A stretch of DNA of 13,135 nt from Chloroflexota bacterium. Its GTDB lineage: Bacteria > Chloroflexota > Anaerolineae > J102. Positions 2,556 to 12,983 of the stretch are shown in pieces. How positions within the stretch are numbered: position 1 is the first letter of the stretch; every line of letters begins with the position of its first letter. Made by a program: the position numbers and the translations under genes. A model generated the notes under the pieces. That model did not search any database, was not told the DNA's origin, and saw only the letters and a program-made list of their open reading frames with translations. The stretch spans positions 1-13,135 of the forward strand of contig PIVW01000121.1 of assembly GCA_003353825.1 (NCBI GenBank), in the 5' to 3' direction.

Positions 2556-3213
2556 TCAAGGTAAACGCCGCGCCGTGATGTGCATGCCATTCTCAATCGT
2601 TTGCTCCGCCATCAGCACCTGGTAGCCGCCCCCGCCCGCACCGGAGAGTTTCCAACCCAAAGCCCGTTGGCGATATGTTTCGATCAAATTGGTAATGGTC
2701 GGATTGAGCATGTGGGGAAACATGGCGTTCTGCGCTTCAAAGGAGCAGCGCATGGCCGTGCCAAAACTGACAGCATCTTTATTGGTAATCGCCTGCCAGC
2801 AGTCGGTGGCGGCATCCGCCAAAAGCCTGCGCCCGTTCCGGTGTGATGTAGGTCTCGCTGAGGACATTGTAGCCGCCGTTGCGAGGCCCTAGCGGAATCA
2901 GATAGAGGAAGGTCTTCGATAAAACGCAGCTTGCTCTCGTCGAGCACGTGTTCGATATGGTGGGGCCAGTGGGCGCCATCATGATCAGATCGGGCAGAGC
3001 CGGGGTAGATCAGCCCAACGCTGTGTCCTGCGCTCATGAAGCAGCACTCCTATTCGATGTTGGCAGGCGAACGACCTTTGAGGTCGTAGACGGTCTGGTC
3101 GGAGCCTAAGGCCACGTAGAGTTGGTCGCCGAGGGCGGCGGTGCGCTGGAAGAACTCGACATGGCCGGAATGGAGCATGTCGAAGCAGCCGCTTATAAAG
3201 ACAATCACAGACA
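2556..3213 (-). pseudogene. Copy B: decayed cytidylyltransferase / GHMP kinase with large internal deletion
   Basis: From ATG at 3213 it reads MSVIVFISGCFDMLHSGHVE, then YVALGSDQTVYDLKGR, then a stop after SPANIE. The next bases jump straight to AGHSVGLIYPG, which in copy A lies about 490 bases further on (copy A roughly 899 to 409). The second half of the transferase and the substrate-binding start of the kinase are therefore missing. After at least two more frameshifts (near 2920 and 2830) the C-terminus is well kept: LADAATDCWQAI, FEAQNAMFPHMLNP and the glycine-rich GHMP motif GWKLSGAGGGGYQVL, ending at TGA 2556-2558. It preserves the Trp codon and full glycine motif that copy A lost, so it is the better guide to the ancestral C-terminus. 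Confidence 0.82.
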
Positions 3214-3267
3214 TGTGCTGAGCGCAGTCGCAGTATTTCTCAGATTTCATGGGGGGGTTAAAAACTT

Positions 3268-3564: not shown

Positions 3565-4188
3565 TTATTCGTATTCCATCTTCCCAAGTTTTATCATGCT
3601 CTCTACATCCTCAGATGCATCTGGTGTATGCTTTGCCACGACTGATCTTACGCTTTCAAGTATGGCGTCGTCAGCGGCGCCTAACATGCGCGTGATGTCA
3701 GCTATGTCCTGGGCTCGTCCCGAGAGCAACTTCATCACAACTAGATAGGGAAGCGCGATAGTAGGTAAACCTGGGTCGGCCATATTTGGAGTGTTGACTG
3801 CCTCATACGCCCACACTTCTTCTGAAAAGATCACGTCGAGTTCGGCACCATCGATAAGCTCCCATGAAGCACCACCTATTGCTAGATTGCCTAGTTTACG
3901 ACAACCCGCCTGCTCTAGCCTATTCTCGCAAGTAGCCTGATCATCCACAAGCACTAGCACATCTGTATCATATGTCATGCGTTCAGGCATATATAGGCGA
4001 GCGGCGATAGCACCAACCACGACAAATGGAATTTCCTGGAAAATCGATCTCAGATCGGGCGCCGCTTGTCTGGATGTACGACGATAAAGGTGAGCGCGGC
4101 TGCTACCACTGCCTGGCTGTGACCTTCTCTTGGCCAATGCCAGATAGGCTTTTCGTCGCGCTGCAACCGCCGTTGGTTCAAATATCAT
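3565..4188 (-). CDS. AbiEii/MNT-like nucleotidyltransferase family protein
   Basis: A 207-residue protein. Residues 55-81 read like a nucleotidyltransferase core: FVVVGAIAARLYMPERMTYD then TDVLVLV, with the DxD pair at Asp74/Asp76 and a likely third carboxylate at Asp118 (AELDVI). Further on, LVVMKLLSGRAQDIADITRM (149-168) matches the K-x-x-R-x-x-D-x-x-D helix of AbiEii/DUF-type nucleotidyltransferases. The first 50 residues are basic and not recognisable. Such proteins are often the toxin half of type IV or related systems, or solitary; no partner is visible on either side, since copy B and the repeats lie downstream and a gene-free stretch lies upstream. VGA replaces the common GG before the helix. 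The frame is intact. Substrate and partner are unknown. Confidence 0.7.
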   Translation of the reverse strand: MIFEPTAVAARRKAYLALAKRRSQPGSGSSRAHLYRRTSRQAAPDLRSIFQEIPFVVVGAIAARLYMPERMTYDTDVLVLVDDQATCENRLEQAGCRKLGNLAIGGASWELIDGAELDVIFSEEVWAYEAVNTPNMADPGLPTIALPYLVVMKLLSGRAQDIADITRMLGAADDAILESVRSVVAKHTPDASEDVESMIKLGKMEYE

Positions 4189-4289: not shown

Positions 4290-4339
4290 TTCGAGTTCCT
4301 CAGGGCAGGCAGAAAATCTACTGTATAACCTGACGAAAC

Positions 4340-4672
4340 AGGTCCTCCATCAGTTTGCGCTTGTCAGGTGTGTTGCCATCCTCATTGACCACAAAGATGT
4401 CGGGCTGGATGGCGCGCAACTTAGGTTCGAAGTCGAGGTAACCACAACCGCTGGAGATCAGAGCCTGGTGCACGCAACCCACGTTTTGCACTATGAAGCA
4501 ACGCTCCCCTTGAAAACCCTTCGCTGTTGGCGGGTGGGCGGCCCTTGAGTTCGTAGACGGTACGGTCGGATCCCCAGGCCACGTAGAGTTGGTCGCGGAG
4601 GGCGGCGGCACGCTGGAGGAACTCGACATGGCCGGAGTAGAGCATGTCGAAGCTACTGACAAAGGTCTTCAT
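4340..4672 (-). pseudogene. Copy C: truncated cytidylyltransferase fragment directly after the BY-kinase gene
   Basis: ATG at 4672 opens MKTFVSSFDMLYSGHVEFLQ, followed by YVAWGSDRTVYELKGRPPAN. A frameshift around 4506-4509 moves to a second frame with QALISSGCGYLDFEP and FVVNEDGNTPDKRKL. Homology to copy A stops near 4340; the kinase half is absent. The conserved HxGH nucleotide-binding motif reads YSGH here, so even the remaining domain would lack its first histidine. It starts only 38 bases after the stop of the BY-kinase gene, so in an ancestor this gene was probably the next member of the polysaccharide operon. Confidence 0.8.
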
Positions 4673-4710
4673 AATTACTTCACAACAGTGATAATTCCAT
4701 TGCTTCCGAT

Positions 4711-6378
4711 TTAGCCTACGGTCTGAGATTTCTGCGTAGAAGTTCGGCCGCTGCGCCCACGACGCCTACGCGTCCTGCCTCCTTCCGCATTCCCATCGCT
4801 ATCGTCACCGTAGTAACGGTCATACGCGTAGTAATAATAGCCACTGTCCCGGCCTCGTTTGTATTTATTCAGGGCCACGCCGATCACGTGAGCGTTGACT
4901 TTATCCAATTCCTGTAAGGCCTGCACCAACGCCGGTTCCCGGGTGTTGCCCGCATCTACCACCAGCAGTATACCATCCAGGACCTGGCCCAAAACAATGG
5001 GGTCGGTCACGGCCAGGGCTGGGGGTGAGTCGAGTATCAACATATCGTGATCATGCAGTAAGCGTTCGCAAAGCACCTGCAATTTTTGTGAGCCTAAAAG
5101 CTCTGAAGGGTTATGCGGCAACTGCCCGCTGGTTATCAGCCAAAGGTTTTCGACGCCAGTCTCCGCCAACAAGTAGTCGAGATTCTCAGGCAGCATCTCC
5201 ATGAGTAATGTGCCTGTCAGGCCCACGGTGTTGGGCAAGCTCCAGAACTTATGCTGGCTGGGTTTGCGCAAATCGGCGTCGACCAGTACCACTCTTTTGC
5301 CGGTCTGCGCCATTACCACAGCAAGATTGGCGGCCGTGGTACTCTTGCCTTCTCCTGGGCTAGCGCTGGTTACCAGTAACGAACGGATGGGATCATCCAC
5401 ACTAGAGAACTGGATGCCGGTGCGGATACTGCGGTAAGCCTCGGCGTCAGACGCGCGCGGGTCTTCGACTGTCACGACTCTGAGCTCACCCTCACCATTG
5501 CTATTCCGCTGTCTGGCAATCACCCCCAGTGTACTCAGGCCAATGATGCGGACCACGTCATCTGGTGTCTTCACCGTATCATCCAAGTATTCGATCAGAA
5601 AGGCCGCACCCAGACCGATCATTCCACCCACGATCAGCGCCAACAAGGTATTCATCAGCAGGCGAGGGCTAATCGGGGATATAGGCACTGTGGCGGGCTC
5701 AACCACCGTGATCGTGTCTCTGGCATTGGCCTCGGCTAGACGGATGACTTCGAGCTGGGAGAGGACACTGCCATAGCTGTTGCGATATTGGGCCAGACGA
5801 TTTTCCAGAAGTGTGCTTCGGTTCTCGTCTGCTCCCTCGCTAGTTTCGGTAATTTCTGCGATATCAGCCGCCACTCCCTTAATCTCATCATTCAGTGCGG
5901 CCAGCTCTGCCTGCAACGAAACCTTCGAGTCCTGGTAGAGCGCAGTCAGTTGCCTATTGTTAAAACTGATAAAAACCTGCGGTAGGGCATTGGCAATGGC
6001 TGCTGCCAGTTCGGGTAGCAGATGCTGCACCTTTAAATCGATCAATTGGGTGTCACGCACCGGCTGCACCGAGACACTCGCCTGGTGCAGCGCCGCCTCC
6101 GGGTTCAGGCCAACCTCCTCGAAGGCCGAAACCAGGATGGGTTTGGCCGTCAGCATCTGGGCATAAGTTTCTGTCAGGCGCTCACTGAGCAAGACATCGG
6201 CATAGGTAACACTGGGATTGTTGGAGGATCCCTGGTTCACCCACAAGCGCGTCGAAGCCTGATAAATTGGGGTCTGGCGTATGCTGAAGGCATAGGCCGC
6301 CACCCCGGCTACAATAGCTGCCAGGACAATCAGCCACAGCCATTTTCTGAAAAAATGCCAATACTCGCGAAGTTCCAT
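4711..6378 (-). CDS. Wzc/CpsD-type polysaccharide co-polymerase with BY tyrosine kinase
   Basis: A 555-residue inner-membrane protein that sets chain length and controls export of a surface polysaccharide by cyclic tyrosine autophosphorylation. Numbered from a TTG at 6393 (5 residues longer): Wzz-type N-terminal domain with membrane segment 17-37; periplasmic part with coiled-coil stretch about 150-225; the Pro-rich VEPATVPISPISP before membrane segment 246-268; BY-kinase domain with Walker A SASPGEGKST (343-352), Walker A' VVLVDADLRKPS (368-379) and Walker B MLILDSPP (451-458). The tyrosine cluster SGYYYYAYDRYY (517-528) is the expected autophosphorylation site. A basic tail TRRRRGRSGR follows the cluster. 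I prefer ATG 6378, with a GGGGA ribosome site 10 bases upstream, over TTG 6393. Transmembrane and kinase parts are fused in one chain, as in proteobacterial Wzc. The gene is intact. Confidence 0.95.
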   Translation of the reverse strand: MELREYWHFFRKWLWLIVLAAIVAGVAAYAFSIRQTPIYQASTRLWVNQGSSNNPSVTYADVLLSERLTETYAQMLTAKPILVSAFEEVGLNPEAALHQASVSVQPVRDTQLIDLKVQHLLPELAAAIANALPQVFISFNNRQLTALYQDSKVSLQAELAALNDEIKGVAADIAEITETSEGADENRSTLLENRLAQYRNSYGSVLSQLEVIRLAEANARDTITVVEPATVPISPISPRLLMNTLLALIVGGMIGLGAAFLIEYLDDTVKTPDDVVRIIGLSTLGVIARQRNSNGEGELRVVTVEDPRASDAEAYRSIRTGIQFSSVDDPIRSLLVTSASPGEGKSTTAANLAVVMAQTGKRVVLVDADLRKPSQHKFWSLPNTVGLTGTLLMEMLPENLDYLLAETGVENLWLITSGQLPHNPSELLGSQKLQVLCERLLHDHDMLILDSPPALAVTDPIVLGQVLDGILLVVDAGNTREPALVQALQELDKVNAHVIGVALNKYKRGRDSGYYYYAYDRYYGDDSDGNAEGGRTRRRRGRSGRTSTQKSQTVG

Positions 6379-6387
6379 GTAGTCATT

Positions 6388-6419
6388 CCCCAATACAGCC
6401 GGACCCCAATACAGCCGGA
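6388..6419. repeat. Perfect tandem 16-bp duplication at the BY-kinase translation start
   Basis: CCCCAATACAGCCGGA occurs twice head to tail, at 6388-6403 and 6404-6419. On the sense (minus) strand each copy ends in TTGGGG. The copy nearer the gene supplies the presumed ribosome-binding GGGGA and the alternative TTG start, so the duplication moved or doubled the initiation signal. Confidence 0.85.
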
Positions 6420-6492
6420 AAGGTCGATACTGTACTGCAATGGTTGGTTTTGAAAAAGAGTGAAGTGTAAAGTAAGTTTATTAGCAGTATGA

Positions 6493-6521
6493 ATAATACA
6501 GCATGAATATAATATATTCAA
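6493..6521 (-). promoter_or_regulatory. Sigma70-like promoter with palindromic operator candidate, upstream of the BY-kinase gene
   Basis: On the minus strand TTGAAT (6521-6516) is followed after exactly 17 bases by TATTAT (6498-6493), 4/6 and 5/6 matches to the -35 and -10 consensus. Overlapping the -35 box and spacer is the perfect inverted repeat TGAATAT-AAT-ATATTCA (6504-6520), placed where a repressor would block RNA polymerase. The region is AT-rich compared with neighbouring genes. About 115 bases separate the -10 box from the ATG at 6378. Confidence 0.5.
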
Positions 6522-6606
6522 TCAGACGCAATCTCAGCCGGCATAAACCTCATGGCAGATAATTCGATTGCTGATGACGGGCACCTAAAGTCCGATAGAG
6601 ATGAAC

Positions 6607-6810
6607 TCAGCCCGCTGAATCAGAGATCGATTCACTCTGCACGATCTGAATGAAGCGTAAACGTCCCTTGACCACGATCAGGCGTACCTCACCAAACGCC
6701 CCAACCTTGGCCAGCGCTTTGTCAAGGCGATGAACTAAATTCGAGTCCAGCACTGCCAGAGAGGATTCAGGAGATGCACCGGCACTTTCACGGGCGGCGA
6801 GATCAGACAT
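6607..6810 (-). CDS. DUF2292/YezD-like small protein
   Basis: A 67-residue protein from ATG 6810, with AAGGAT 11 bases upstream as a rather distant ribosome site. The C-terminal half reads LVHRLDKALAKVGAFGEV then RLIVVKGRLRFIQI. This is the short helix followed by two strands (GxVxLxVxxGRxxxI) of the DUF2292 family, whose members include Bacillus YezD. From memory, members of that family are often found among sulfur-assimilation genes. Here it lies after the sulfotransferase and two genes after the PAPS synthetase. Biochemical role unknown. The first 20 residues (Ser/Ala/Glu-rich) look disordered. The frame is confidently coding because of the conserved core, but the family assignment is by motif only. 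Confidence 0.6.
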   Translation of the reverse strand: MSDLAARESAGASPESSLAVLDSNLVHRLDKALAKVGAFGEVRLIVVKGRLRFIQIVQSESISDSAG

Positions 6811-6847
6811 GATCGGCAAACATCCTTATGTGTAACAGAAATAACAA

Positions 6848-6900
6848 ACGACCCTCGGGATTTTCCACCACTGGCAGGGTCGTGACACCCGTAGGGTGCC
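6848..6900 (-). promoter_or_regulatory. Two abutting hairpins in the leader of the DUF2292 gene (attenuator or cis-regulatory RNA candidate)
   Basis: On the sense (minus) strand, GGCACCC-TAC-GGGTGTC (6900-6884) is immediately followed, with no gap, by ACGACCCT-(20 bases)-AGGGTCGT (6883-6848), an 8-bp perfect stem. The next bases, TTGTTATTTCTGTT, are T-rich as after an intrinsic terminator. The gene start lies about 40 bases further on. I cannot match this to a known riboswitch class. Confidence 0.45.
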
Positions 6901-7047
6901 AAGAAAACAGTTGGAATTCTTTCTCATCAAATGTGATCTGAGCTCTTGGAGGCCCAGTAACCCCAAAATGCTATAGAAAGAATCCCAGATTATGGATACT
7001 CTTAAAAAAAATGCACCTCCCCGCAAAACACCGCTCAGGCTCCGCCA

Positions 7048-7072
7048 CGCCGCCATCAGTGTTATGGCGGCG
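7048..7072. repeat. Perfect 9-bp stem-loop CGCCGCCAT / ATGGCGGCG
   Basis: CGCCGCCAT (7048-7056) and ATGGCGGCG (7064-7072) are exact inverted copies with a 7-base loop. It lies in the roughly 500-base gene-free stretch 6811-7309 between the sulfotransferase and DUF2292 genes. No T-run follows closely on either strand. On the minus strand it is followed at once by GTGGCGGAGCCTG. Confidence 0.6.
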
Positions 7073-7309
7073 ACATCAAACTGCAGTCACTCTCAGGACG
7101 GAGCTTGTGAGCTACGACGTACCCTGAGTTAACGTGTCGTACTACAGGAACTCATTGAGTTGGAACCTACAAAAGGAAGTACCCTACAATCATACCTGCT
7201 ATCCATTCTGGAATCAAGTAGGACCACCCCTTCATAACTGATAATTTGCTTACATTTCGCGTTTCATGAGTCCACAGAGGCCACAACTGTATGAGGAAAT
7301 CCCAAAACG
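7073..7309. other. Gene-free stretch between the sulfotransferase and DUF2292 genes
   Basis: No frame here shows recognisable coding similarity. It contains a 13-base palindrome AACTCATTGAGTT (7149-7161) and a loose pair CTACGAC / GTCGTACTAC around 7110-7145. No clear terminator follows the sulfotransferase stop, and no good sigma70 promoter is visible by eye. Confidence 0.4.
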
Positions 7310-7927
7310 CTAGGATCGATTGCGATATAGACTAGGGTCCACCACCCTAGCCATGGCCGCTTCGTTCAGAACACCGTTCAGGAACTGATTCACTTCTCGT
7401 ACATAAGGCGCAGGATCAATCAACATCTGGTTGTAATCGACGTCGATGAGTGTAAAATTGGGTTGTGCGGAAACCCAACTTTTTGTTTTATTCACATGTT
7501 TCTGCAATAGCTCGCCCAGTTTTTCGTCACTGATATTCGAGTCTTCTCCACGATGTTCGAGCATTCTACCTTGTGAGGCCAGAACTTCTTCGAGATGCCG
7601 ATTCATAAAGAGCACCTGGTAGTCAAATCCGGGTGGCAGGTGCTCTAACAAAGCGGCGATCACTTTCACTACCTTTCCTACAGCATCTGCCATCCACTCG
7701 CCATCCCCTTTATCTAGTTGCTTCACTCGCTCGAACTCGTAATACCCTTTGGGGTTATCGGTATCCGCCTCGCGCAGGCCGTCACTTAGCACTGCCAGAC
7801 CACCGGCCTCCAACATCTTCATCATCATCGACGTGCCAGAGCGAGGCAGGCCGGATACGACCACCACGGTATTGGCCGGAAGTGTAGGTTGTGGTTCGGC
7901 CTTAAACAGATTCTTGAATAGCTTCAT
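7310..7927 (-). CDS. Small sulfotransferase-fold (PAPS-binding P-loop) protein
   Basis: A 205-residue protein starting MKLFKNLFKAEP. Residues 25-33 are SGLPRSGTS, the phosphosulfate-binding loop of sulfotransferases (usual form GxPRSGTS). A second segment, FMNRHLEEVLASQGRM, sits where sulfotransferases have the Arg/Ser that bind the 3'-phosphate of PAPS. At about 205 residues it is shorter than typical carbohydrate sulfotransferases (250-350), with a short region between the two motifs, so transfer activity is likely but not certain. Some such proteins are annotated only as sulfotransferase-family P-loop proteins. It lies next downstream of the PAPS synthetase gene, which supports PAPS use. 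An in-frame ATG at 7951 and a TTG at 7957 are alternative starts; neither these nor 7927 has a clear ribosome site. Confidence 0.78.
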   Translation of the reverse strand: MKLFKNLFKAEPQPTLPANTVVVVSGLPRSGTSMMMKMLEAGGLAVLSDGLREADTDNPKGYYEFERVKQLDKGDGEWMADAVGKVVKVIAALLEHLPPGFDYQVLFMNRHLEEVLASQGRMLEHRGEDSNISDEKLGELLQKHVNKTKSWVSAQPNFTLIDVDYNQMLIDPAPYVREVNQFLNGVLNEAAMARVVDPSLYRNRS

Positions 7928-7949
7928 GGTAGGCACTTGCGGCGGCGAC

Positions 7950-7969
7950 ATCGACAACTTTTTGTCGAT
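7950..7969 (-). promoter_or_regulatory. Stem-loop over the upstream start codon of the sulfotransferase gene
   Basis: On the minus strand ATCGACAA-AAAG-TTGTCGAT is a perfect 8-bp stem with a 4-base loop at 7969-7950, and the alternative ATG at 7951 overlaps its base. If formed, it would hide that start and favour the ATG at 7927, or gate translation. Confidence 0.4.
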
Positions 7970-8044
7970 CTTGATCTCTTATCTGACAAGGTGAGGGGGT
8001 GGCAAGGTGATCACTTGACACTCCTGCTACCTTGTGGAAAAGTG

Positions 8045-8073
8045 ATTATGTCAACTAAATGGTATTGTCACAA
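8045..8073 (-). promoter_or_regulatory. Sigma70-like promoter candidate for the sulfotransferase gene
   Basis: TTGTGA (8073-8068) and CATAAT (8050-8045) on the minus strand are separated by exactly 17 bases, 4/6 and 5/6 matches to consensus. It lies in the 169-base gap between the PAPS synthetase stop and the sulfotransferase start. Two direct copies of CCTGCTACCT (8023-8032 and 8082-8091) flank it. Confidence 0.4.
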
Positions 8074-8096
8074 CTAAAAACCCTGCTACCTGCAGA

Positions 8097-9893
<1,797 letters not shown>

Positions 9894-9901
9894 TCAGCAT
9901 A

Positions 9902-11209
9902 TTATACCACATGTCGGGTATCTACAAGAGCCTCGCATGTTGTGGCGATTCGCTGCCAATCATAGTTGGAATGATCGGTAACGATGACCACGCAATCGGC
10001 AGCCGCCAGCGCTTCATCAAGATCGGTTTCGCTGCTCAGGCGCCGGTCATTATGGAGGAACTCGGCCACATAAGGGTCGTGATAGCGCACATCCGCGCCT
10101 TTGCCACGTAATAATTCGATGATATCCAGCGCCGGCGACTCACGCACGTCATCAATATCTTTTTTGTAAGCAACGCCCAAGATCAGCACCCGACTCCCCT
10201 TTACAGCCTTTCCGACATCATTCAACGCATCCTGTACCTTGTCTACCCAGTAATGGGGCATTTCAGTATTGATCTCGCCCGCCAATTGGATAAAACGGGC
10301 GTTATAATTCAACATCTTCAACTTCCATGACAGATAGTGAGGATCCAGAGGAATACAATGGCCACCTACGCCGGGACCGGGTGTAAACTTCATAAAACCA
10401 TAGGGTTTAGTCGCCGCTGCTTCAATCACTTCCCAAACATCGATACCAAGCTTATCGCACATGATGGCCGTCTCGTTCACGAGGGCGATATTGACGGCCC
10501 GGAAGGTATTTTCCAGGAGCTTGGTCATCTCTGCTGCCGAAGTCGACGATACCGGCACGACGCGCTCGATGGCCTGTCCGTAGAGACTGCAGGCGACCTC
10601 CAAGCAGGTCGGTGTCACACCACCTACCACTTTTGGCGTAGTCTCGACCACCCAATCGCTACGGCCGGGATCAATACGCTCGGGCGAAAATGCGAGAAAG
10701 AAATCCTCACCCACCTGCCAGCTCACATCGGCCGCCTGAGATTCCTTGAGCATCGGCAGCAGTAGTTCCTCGGTCGTGCCGGGGTAGGTTGTGGATTCAA
10801 GGACGACGAGCATGCCCGCTGGTATGTGTGCGGCAATCGATTCTCCGGCTGAGATCAGGAAGCGCACATCCGGGTCCCGTGTTTTATTCAAAGGTGTGGG
10901 CACGCAGACAATAGCGACATCACATTGCTGTAAAACTGAATAATCGGTCGTAGCCCAGACTGAGCCAGGTGACTTTGGCCGGCGACTACTGTAGCGTGCC
11001 AGTGTCGAGGATGCCACATCCTGGATGTAGGATTCGCCCTGATTTACGGCATCGACTTTTTGCTCGTCCACATCGATGCCAATCACTGTAAAACCATTCT
11101 TGGCAAACGCTACCGCCAGGGGCAGGCCTACATATCCCAGGCCGACGATAGCCAGGTTTGCTTGTTTACTTGTGATGCTTTGCAGGAGCTTAGCTGATTT
11201 GTTAGTCAT
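9902..11209 (-). CDS. UDP-sugar 6-dehydrogenase (UDP-GlcNAc/UDP-ManNAc dehydrogenase type)
   Basis: A 435-residue enzyme that oxidises C6 of a UDP-hexose (or UDP-N-acetylhexosamine) to a uronic acid with two NAD+. The N-terminal NAD domain has VGLGYVGLPLA (22-32) and VLESTTYPGTTE (136-147). The central domain has AEMTKLLENTFRAVN with Lys230 and Asn234. The active-site loop is PGPGVGGHCIPLDPHYL with catalytic Cys285. The GGHCIPLDPxYL form, rather than the GGxCxPKD form of UDP-glucose dehydrogenases, points to the WbpA/WecC/TviB group acting on N-acetylhexosamines; the exact sugar is inferred. It starts 6 bases after the NusG-like gene, with its GGAGGT ribosome site inside that gene's last codons. 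It supplies acidic sugar for the polysaccharide. Confidence 0.95.
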   Translation of the reverse strand: MTNKSAKLLQSITSKQANLAIVGLGYVGLPLAVAFAKNGFTVIGIDVDEQKVDAVNQGESYIQDVASSTLARYSSRRPKSPGSVWATTDYSVLQQCDVAIVCVPTPLNKTRDPDVRFLISAGESIAAHIPAGMLVVLESTTYPGTTEELLLPMLKESQAADVSWQVGEDFFLAFSPERIDPGRSDWVVETTPKVVGGVTPTCLEVACSLYGQAIERVVPVSSTSAAEMTKLLENTFRAVNIALVNETAIMCDKLGIDVWEVIEAAATKPYGFMKFTPGPGVGGHCIPLDPHYLSWKLKMLNYNARFIQLAGEINTEMPHYWVDKVQDALNDVGKAVKGSRVLILGVAYKKDIDDVRESPALDIIELLRGKGADVRYHDPYVAEFLHNDRRLSSETDLDEALAAADCVVIVTDHSNYDWQRIATTCEALVDTRHVV

Positions 11210-11215
11210 AAGTTC

Positions 11216-11836
11216 TCAACCTCCGCCACCACCCTTTGGCTCTTCTTTACCCTGATAGTCGATCTTCCTCCCACCACCGCGCGTGCCCCGCCGTTTCTTG
11301 TGGTGATGCACCGGGCTGGCACGTTCGATATCGTGTAAATCCAGTTCCACTTCATTTTGTTGGCCCAGAAATCTGAGTAGCACGACGACCCTTTCTACAG
11401 GCTTTAGATGCTTTACAAAGAGGGCATGCAGGCCTTTCAGTGGTCCGCTATTTAATCGTACCATTTCACCAGGCCGATAGGTGTCGTGCGGTAATCCTCC
11501 CTCTTCATTCAGTTTATCTACCTCGACCCGCAGCTGTGCCATGACGCCAGGGCGTAAGGGGAGTGGAATGTCGCCAAATACGATGATTTTCAACGTACCG
11601 GGTGTGGCATTAATAGCAGTCACTTCTACTTTGCTCAGATTTGCCTGGACAAATACGTAGCGTGGAAACAATGGCCGCAAAACCATCTGCTCACGGTATT
11701 TCTGTAAAACCTCAGGCAGATAAACTTGTAGTGAAAGCCTCTCCTCAAGCATGCCGGCCGCCAGCAACTCCTTATGAGGCCTGGTATGAACCACATACCA
11801 GAGGTCGGAATCAATCATGTTTTGTGTCATGAGCAT
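11216..11836 (-). CDS. NusG/RfaH-like transcription antiterminator paralogue
   Basis: A 206-residue paralogue of the elongation factor NusG. The NGN domain (about 12-112) starts LWYVVHTRPHKELLAAGML and includes PLFPRYVFVQANL (55-67), which binds the RNA polymerase clamp in NusG proteins. A KOW-like domain (about 120-171) reads YRPGEMVRLNSGPLKGLHAL then FLGQQNEVELDL. The tail HHHKKRRGTRGGG ... KGGGGG is low-complexity. Paralogues such as RfaH, LoaP and UpxY sit at or near the head of long polysaccharide or antibiotic operons and suppress termination within them; that role is inferred from position. The final glycine codons double as the ribosome site of the dehydrogenase gene. Three possible ATGs (11836, 11830, 11818) lie close together, none with a clear ribosome site. 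Confidence 0.9.
   Translation of the reverse strand: MLMTQNMIDSDLWYVVHTRPHKELLAAGMLEERLSLQVYLPEVLQKYREQMVLRPLFPRYVFVQANLSKVEVTAINATPGTLKIIVFGDIPLPLRPGVMAQLRVEVDKLNEEGGLPHDTYRPGEMVRLNSGPLKGLHALFVKHLKPVERVVVLLRFLGQQNEVELDLHDIERASPVHHHKKRRGTRGGGRKIDYQGKEEPKGGGGG
11219..11224 (-). promoter_or_regulatory. Ribosome binding site of the dehydrogenase, inside the poly-Gly tail of the NusG-like gene
   Basis: The codons GGA GGT just before the TGA stop of the NusG-like gene form GGAGGT, 9 bases before ATG 11209. This explains a coding constraint at the end of the upstream protein and implies translational coupling. Confidence 0.75.
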
Positions 11837-11872
11837 GATGTCTGAGTCTCGGAGCGTGTTCGCTGATTTGCA

Positions 11873-11938
11873 GGCTCCGCCGATCTTGATGTTTTCGATA
11901 CATCAAGCAGCGTATGGTATTCAGCGTGGGGCGGAGCC
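11873..11938 (-). promoter_or_regulatory. Nested stem-loop in the leader of the NusG-like gene
   Basis: In the 178-base gap after the epimerase gene, GGCTCCGCC and GGCGGAGCC form a perfect 9-bp outer stem (11938-11930 with 11881-11873 on the minus strand). Inside it a perfect 7-bp hairpin CTTGATG / CATCAAG (11907-11901 with 11891-11885) forms a second element. No T-run follows, so it is not a simple terminator. It could be a recognition structure for the downstream antiterminator, or an autoregulatory leader. Confidence 0.5.
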
Positions 11939-12014
11939 AAAGGCTACAACGCAGCAAACGCTTTGGTGTTGGCAGGTCTCTACGATGTTAGGGGGTGGGT
12001 ACGGCAGATCCGTA

Positions 12015-12983
12015 TTATACGTCCAGTGACGCTGCAATGCGAGTTAATATCTGATTCAATTTGAATTCAGGCTCCCATCCCGAGAGGGCGCGAATGCGGC
12101 TGGTGTCCGGCACGCGACGCTGCATGTCTTCGAACCCGGGTGCGTAAGCCTGTTCATATGGAATCAATTCGATAGATGAGGTGCTACCCGTGAGCAGCTT
12201 GACGCGTTCAGCCAATTCGCCAATGCTTATTTCTTCGATGGAACCCACATTGTAGACGCACCCCAAAGCCTCAGGGTATTCCGCCAGATCGATGAGGGCG
12301 CGTACTGTATCTGAAACATCACAAAAACAGCGGCTTTGTCGGCCGTCTCCGAATACGCTGATGGGCTCACCACGCAGGGCCTGCTCCACAAATCTAGGCA
12401 CCACCATGCCGTAACGCCCTGTCTGGCGAGGCCCTACCGTGTTGAAAAGCCGCGCAACCACAACCGGCAGGTCTTTATCCCGGTAGTAGGCGAGAGCGAG
12501 GAACTCATCGACCATTTTTGAGGCAGCGTAGGACCAGCGACTTTTGCTGGTAGGTCCCAATACAACATCATCATCCTCTCGAAAGGGGACACGGCTGCCC
12601 TTGCCATAAACTTCGGAGGTAGAAGCAACCAGCACTTTGGCTCTGTAGCGGGAGGCCGCTTGCAGCACAGCATCGGTGCCCATGACGTTGGCTTCGATAG
12701 TATGGACCGGACGTTCGACAATCAGTTGCACGCCCACAGCAGCAGCAAGGTGGATGATAACCTCGCACTCACTGGCCAATCGATCCAGTACAATGGCATT
12801 GGTGATGTCATCAATAGCAAATCGGAAACCCGGTTTCCCCACCAGGTGCTCGATATTGTGGAAGCGCCCGGTCGACAGATTATCAAGCACTGTGACCTGC
12901 TTTCCCTTCGCCAGCAATGCTTCGCACAAATGACTGCCGATAAAACCGGCGCCGCCTGTGATCAGAAACGAATTATGTCTCAT
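12015..12983 (-). CDS. NAD-dependent nucleotide-sugar epimerase/decarboxylase (extended SDR)
   Basis: A 322-residue extended short-chain dehydrogenase acting on a nucleotide sugar, of the UDP-glucose 4-epimerase / UDP-glucuronate decarboxylase / GDP-mannose dehydratase superfamily. It has the NAD loop ITGGAGFIGSH (8-18), Asp34 in VLDNLSTG for the NAD ribose, ASTSEVYGKGS with the catalytic Ser/Thr (120-130), and the catalytic pair Tyr152-Lys156 in YAASK. ARLFNTVGPRQTGRYGMVVP (177-196) and the late RRVPDTSRIRALSGWEPEF are typical of the group. All catalytic residues are present. The exact reaction cannot be told by eye. The start ATG at 12983 fits the family start but has no clear ribosome site. 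It is the first gene of the cluster within the window and is followed after 178 bases by the NusG-like gene. Confidence 0.93.
   Translation of the reverse strand: MRHNSFLITGGAGFIGSHLCEALLAKGKQVTVLDNLSTGRFHNIEHLVGKPGFRFAIDDITNAIVLDRLASECEVIIHLAAAVGVQLIVERPVHTIEANVMGTDAVLQAASRYRAKVLVASTSEVYGKGSRVPFREDDDVVLGPTSKSRWSYAASKMVDEFLALAYYRDKDLPVVVARLFNTVGPRQTGRYGMVVPRFVEQALRGEPISVFGDGRQSRCFCDVSDTVRALIDLAEYPEALGCVYNVGSIEEISIGELAERVKLLTGSTSSIELIPYEQAYAPGFEDMQRRVPDTSRIRALSGWEPEFKLNQILTRIAASLDV

Follow-up and report, generated by a model that had tools for sequence, protein, structure and literature searches.

In this study, we describe a stretch of 13135 bases from a Chloroflexota bacterium (contig PIVW01000121.1; hereafter the window), whose minus strand carries genes for sulfate activation and sulfuryl transfer among genes for the synthesis of what is probably an acidic polysaccharide. 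The set begins with a nicotinamide adenine dinucleotide (NAD)-dependent nucleoside diphosphate (NDP)-sugar epimerase/decarboxylase of 322 residues (12015..12983; Pfam Epimerase, 191.6 bits), followed by a NusG-family antiterminator-like protein of 206 residues (11216..11836; Pfam NusG, 51.2 bits against a cut-off of 22.2) and a uridine diphosphate (UDP)-sugar 6-dehydrogenase of 435 residues (9902..11209; TIGR03026, 447.6 bits against a cut-off of 189.8). After these come Sat-CysC, a fused ATP sulfurylase and adenosine 5'-phosphosulfate (APS) kinase, that is, a 3'-phosphoadenosine 5'-phosphosulfate (PAPS) synthetase, of 597 residues with an uncertain start (8097..9890), and a compact sulfotransferase, predicted to be PAPS-dependent and here called ST, of 215 residues as listed (7310..7957). 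A small conserved open reading frame (ORF) of 70 residues (6607..6819) and a Wzc-type chain-length determinant and BY-kinase of 560 residues (4711..6393) complete the set. The gaps between the NusG-family gene and the dehydrogenase gene (6 bases) and between the latter and Sat-CysC (11 bases) suggest a single transcript. A first-pass annotation of this DNA had set the sulfur genes between the dehydrogenase and the Wzc-type kinase, which is where they lie, and had seen no reductive sulfur genes nearby; none was found in the two sets of 10 window ORFs each that were profile-scanned.

The same annotation had taken Sat-CysC for a full-length enzyme with all of its active-site motifs, and the comparison with curated models and a solved structure bears this out. 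The protein scores 837.9 bits against PRK05537, for which the equivalog cut-off is 669, both an ATP-sulfurylase and an APS_kinase domain are found by Pfam, and residues 61-597, reaching to the end of the protein, align at 759.7 bits with the solved bifunctional SAT/APS kinase 2gks. In that alignment the motifs that we take to mark the active sites of both catalytic domains, LDGD among them, are in place. Whereas the likeness to the 2gks type of enzyme is thus close in sequence, the Sat-CysC of the window differs from it in its setting, as it sits in a polysaccharide operon and adjoins a sulfotransferase.

ST is a sulfotransferase by profile, predicted fold and motifs, in agreement with its earlier description as a sulfotransferase-fold protein. 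It passes the cut-offs of Sulfotransfer_3 (32.1 bits against 27) and Sulfotransfer_1 (24.2 against 22), and in an alignment of 91 rows spanning phyla, which has 23 invariant columns, PRSGTS stands in all 87 rows that cover the site and R118 and S126 stand in 91/91. We take PRSGTS to be the 5'-phosphosulfate loop, and R118 and S126 to be the arginine and serine for the 3'-phosphate. A PHROGs search gave nothing useful. The true start of ST probably lies further in than the listed frame, since the copy in a colinear locus of a relative (L001) has a stop codon within the matched stretch and an open frame from 1960. Very long open frames with a Sulfotransfer_3 domain, roughly 2600 to 3300 residues in length, were also seen among the relative genomes (G005 C58, C128 and C193; G014 C22).

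The best-scoring solved relative of the epimerase is UDP-glucuronic acid decarboxylase 1 (191 bits), and those of the dehydrogenase are Cap5O and UDP-ManNAcA dehydrogenase, which together indicate some kind of acidic sugar. The Wzc-type kinase has a Wzz domain (PF02706, 41.1 bits against 25.5), passes TIGR01007 (171 against 108) and, in translation, carries a tyrosine-rich stretch at its C-terminus. The NusG-family protein had been called an antiterminator; its membership of the NusG family is confirmed by Pfam, but it remains below the curated NCBIfam cut-offs of RfaH (89.2 bits against 144.5), UpxY (58.2 against 100) and LoaP (46.4 against 125), so that antitermination of this operon is likely rather than established. 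The label of a DUF2292-like protein, which had been given to the 70-residue ORF, has to be dropped. This ORF had no Pfam match, PF10055 included, at E values up to 10, although the HMMER filters can lose weak matches of short proteins; no Pfam domain was found in any of its relatives, which are 7 proteins with its own, and DUF2292 was found in 0/14 relative genomes. The ORF itself is 96% conserved in L001.

The gene order of the window is kept in relatives. A genome scan gave 174 confirmed stretches with a relative of ST, and the best 80 of these were used as loci, 14 of which belong to the clade of the window and 66 lie outside it; a gene was counted as near ST when within 6 kb, and several of the clade contigs begin inside the cluster. 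The 14 loci and the window form one supported group in the ST tree (100/94). Near ST in this clade are Sat-CysC (10/14), the dehydrogenase (10/14), the epimerase (9/14), a NusG-family gene (8/14) and Wzc (6/14). In each of the 10 loci that have both, ST follows immediately on Sat-CysC. Where the contig extends far enough, which is the case at 10 loci, the dehydrogenase always precedes Sat-CysC or ST. As for the four clade loci without Sat-CysC before ST, one contig (L006) starts at ST, and in the other three (L002, L003, L007) the dehydrogenase is directly before ST, with another Sat-CysC and a second CysC elsewhere. The STs linked to Sat-CysC do not form one group apart from the unlinked loci in the tree (4 changes), although the scoring of L006 as lacking Sat-CysC could have produced one of the 4 in error. 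The family of G008 comprises 20 genomes. Ten of them carry a full-length Sat-CysC with at least 79% identity, and in all ten ST adjoins it; in an eleventh (G033) the contig ends inside Sat-CysC, after the epimerase and the dehydrogenase, and the genome yielded no ST. The place of Wzc varies, after ST in the window and L001 and before the epimerase in five loci (L005, L008, L009, L010, L015). L001 is colinear with the window over 4683-8010 (91.7% DNA identity) and 8092-9863 (95.2%), hence the order of genes is no accident. Synonymous against nonsynonymous codon changes between the two are 57/27 in Sat-CysC, which is 95% identical as protein, 60/51 in Wzc, 16/16 in ST and 4/3 in the 70-residue ORF.

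Beyond the window the cluster could be read only in relatives, and there the extension proposed in the first-pass annotation did bring out Wzx, Wzy and glycosyltransferases. In L008, ST is followed by a TPR protein, a Gfo/Idh protein, Wzx, two GT4 enzymes and a CoA-binding-domain protein; a hexapeptide transferase is downstream of ST in L009 and Wzy in L005. In L003, genes of Polysacc_synt_2, GT4, Wzy and GT2 type come after ST, and L007 has ORFs of the same sequence clusters. Further sulfotransferases, also proposed, are on the cluster contig in 4/14 genomes (G005, G007, G008, G011), 9 to 27 kb away.

We consider it probable, therefore, that the genes of the window belong to a cluster for a capsule or exopolysaccharide of the Wzx/Wzy type, and that this cluster has a sulfation branch of its own, in which a dedicated PAPS supply and a sulfotransferase serve an acidic surface polysaccharide. 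This is the reading that had first been offered for the locus, and both the conserved linkage between sulfur and polysaccharide genes and the lack of reductases on the cluster contigs support it; from the neighbourhood of ST we infer that an acceptor sugar of this polysaccharide is what becomes sulfated. The epimerase and the dehydrogenase would provide an acidic NDP-sugar, and Sat-CysC would convert sulfate and two ATP into PAPS. ST would then pass the sulfuryl group from PAPS to the repeat unit or its sugar precursor while these are still in the cytoplasm and have yet to be exported. Transcription through the whole of this long operon is probably sustained by the NusG-family protein, and chain length and export would be controlled by the Wzc-type kinase.

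Several observations, on the content of the window, on the surroundings of ST in other bacteria and on the uses of PAPS in relatives, weigh against this reading. No glycosyltransferase, Wzx or Wzy gene was found within the window. The ST family is very widespread, with at least 7967 relatives under E 0.001 from the 8000 candidates scored, and with 174 confirmed stretches in the genome scan. Outside the clade, PAPS genes are near ST in only 1/66 loci, the dehydrogenase in 3/66, the epimerase in 4/66, Wzc in 2/66 and a NusG-family gene in 1/66, and some relatives of ST adjoin genes for iron uptake or of the alkaline-phosphatase superfamily instead. Since ST is found mostly away from PAPS and polysaccharide genes there, its acceptor may not be this polysaccharide. 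ST could instead act on a lipid, a lipid-linked sugar or a small metabolite and merely share the PAPS of the cluster, as its relatives in so many other settings would suggest; the invariant columns across phyla hint at a common acceptor, and the polymer might have its enzymes among the other sulfotransferase-domain genes, for the 14/14 relative genomes have 2 to 12 Sulfotransfer_3 matches each, ST itself counted, so that more sulfotransferases than ST may be active. We nevertheless regard this as unlikely. In the clade, ST stays by the dehydrogenase, the epimerase and the NusG-family gene even where Sat-CysC is elsewhere, as in L002, L003 and L007, and it is paired again with capsule genes in L048. 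The latter is the single locus outside the clade that accounts for both the PAPS genes and the NusG-family gene near ST. Its ST is 56% identical to that of the window; immediately before it are genes for CysD and a fused CysN-CysC, each of which passes its curated cut-off, and after it are a NusG-family gene, a dehydrogenase, an epimerase, a GDP-mannose dehydratase, a TPR protein, a cytidylyltransferase, a NeuB-type gene and capsule-synthesis genes. A different type of PAPS synthetase beside the same family of ST in another capsule cluster is, though from this one locus, the sort of recurrence that sulfation of a surface glycan would predict.

With regard to the neighbours of ST outside the clade, relatives of ST share their loci with DtxR/FeoA or FeoB-type iron genes, as identified by scans of the representatives of sequence clusters, in L028, L030, L033, L034, L035, L050, L051, L063, L065 and L077. 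The loci L057, L066, L067, L073, L075, L078, L079 and L080 contain, besides a relative of ST, ORFs from two sequence clusters of the alkaline-phosphatase superfamily, of which one member was Pfam-scanned. The motif [CSTA]-x-[PAS]-[SAT]-R gave 4 matches in 3 proteins among 16 sulfatase-like members, and all of them have Ala as the first residue, which suggests that these proteins may not be ordinary sulfatases.

The second alternative is that Sat-CysC belongs to the assimilation of sulfate for cysteine and is only located in a polysaccharide operon. In all 10 genomes with the Sat-CysC-ST pair there is exactly one full-length APS kinase, that of the cluster, the other matches being short fragments (E 2e-4 to 7e-4). 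PAPS/APS reductase (PF01507) and sulfite reductase (PF01077) are both missing in 8/10 of these genomes, or 8/11 when G033, whose cluster is cut by the contig end, is counted. As PF01507 also matches CysD, curated models were used to tell the two apart, and by these the L048 protein is CysD. Control searches in well-known genomes, where PF01507 was found in 14/14 and PF01077 in 11/14, confirm that the two profiles perform; the latter family also covers dissimilatory enzymes. Speaking for assimilation, both reductases lie together on a contig other than that of the cluster in G004 and G013, and G033 has both as well, so in these three PAPS may serve both sulfation and reduction. In the family of 20 genomes, both reductases occur in 5 (G002, G004, G013, G032, G033) and neither in 15. 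All 6 PF01507 proteins of these five genomes pass PRK02090, which makes them PAPS/APS reductases, with a sulfite reductase in the same genome for all 6 and on the same contig for 5/6. By the stricter TIGR02057, a PAPS-reductase model, none of the 6 qualifies; the APS-reductase model TIGR02055 is passed by the first of the two G004 proteins and by that of G033, which would accordingly not need PAPS. In the 14 relative genomes neither type of reductase is on a cluster contig, that is, the cysH/cysI-type genes which the first-pass annotation had named as evidence against a sulfated polysaccharide do not accompany the cluster. As the relative genomes are metagenome bins whose completeness is not given, an absence in one of them proves little, but the pattern across many is evidence, and it leaves assimilation as a very improbable role for Sat-CysC. 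A search with Inositol_P (PF00459) for a phosphatase of 3'-phosphoadenosine 5'-phosphate found matches in 14/14 genomes and none on the cluster contigs, a family too broad to inform. That ST could be a P-loop protein of other activity, such as a nucleotide-dependent kinase or a RapZ-like protein, might be thought from the fact that its single sequence matched no solved sulfotransferase in pairwise comparison and that RapZ chains are among the Foldseek matches of its predicted structure, but the sulfotransferase profiles and the structure comparison make this least probable of all.

More tentatively, and with slightly less than even confidence, we propose that this lineage of Chloroflexota retains sulfate activation only for a surface polysaccharide, in the absence of sulfate assimilation, and that ST, at about 205 residues, represents a widespread uncharacterised family of bacterial sulfotransferases that modify envelope glycans. 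Should PAPS serve nothing else in these cells, the upkeep of sulfate activation would be paid for by sulfation alone.

Well-known makers of sulfated polysaccharides include animals, algae and cyanobacteria, together with a few marine proteobacteria. In rhizobia, as here, a sulfotransferase is coupled to a PAPS supply of its own in the NodPQ-NodH system, which differs in that its acceptor is a lipo-chitooligosaccharide signal and its enzymes are of the CysD and CysN/C type. The nearest likeness is with two capsule clusters, one in Vibrio sp. KMM 8419 and one in Cobetia marina KMM 1449. Genes for PAPS synthesis and sulfotransferases are reported to lie within each of them, and the polymers were shown to be sulfated (PMC11641403, PMC11766843). 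Such clusters are thus less rare than the first-pass annotation had supposed. As described there, they have CysD with CysN and CysC (CysN and CysC being fused in Cobetia) and export by an ABC transporter, and the PAPS genes of the Vibrio strain are second copies. In contrast, the cluster described here has a single-chain Sat-CysC and, in relatives, Wzx/Wzy-type genes, and the 10 pair-bearing relatives have no other full-length APS kinase. The synechan (xss) cluster of Synechocystis PCC 6803, which makes a Wzx/Wzy-type exopolysaccharide, likewise contains sulfotransferases, XssA and XssE; a PAPS-synthesis gene is not mentioned, and the terms PAPS and APS kinase are absent, in the main text of that report (PMC8205485).

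In the accessible portions of the literature on sulfotransferases, sulfated polysaccharides or glycosaminoglycans and PAPS, PMC12426252 and PMC10450351 among it, we found no description of such a cluster in Chloroflexota, Anaerolineae or Caldilineae. In a Shark Bay study, two Chloroflexi bins are reported to be without sulfotransferase (PMC9723792), which speaks against a phylum-wide trait, and sulfotransferases are named in two bins in another report (PMC12555021). What is new here is the occurrence in another phylum, the single-chain Sat-CysC, the compact ST, and the fact that no other use of PAPS is in sight in most of the relatives searched. A conserved and dedicated set of this kind in uncultured Chloroflexota would widen the range of known bacterial makers of sulfated polysaccharide; the combination of dehydrogenase, Sat-CysC and ST may serve as a marker for finding more such clusters, and ST as a compact sulfotransferase family for study.

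The window has a few other features. Rfam and transfer RNA scans of it were empty, and an ORF at 7056-6826 was rejected as a gene, with 4 synonymous against 12 nonsynonymous changes to L001 and one gapped codon. Three frameshifted remnants of one cytidylyltransferase and GHMP-kinase gene lie at 39-1086, 2565-3214 and 4339-4672, with 79-89% DNA likeness to each other where they can be aligned, and an intact relative of 379 residues is directly after ST in L003 (10718-11854). On the minus strand, the overlapping genes at 1247-1582 and 1561-2100 encode a nucleotidyltransferase (MntA-like, under the cut-off) and a HEPN-domain protein, and resemble a toxin-antitoxin pair. A further minus-strand ORF at 3565-4188 is nucleotidyltransferase-like, with only a weak match to DUF6036, and has a 62% relative downstream of the polysaccharide genes of L008 (L082:4469-5140).

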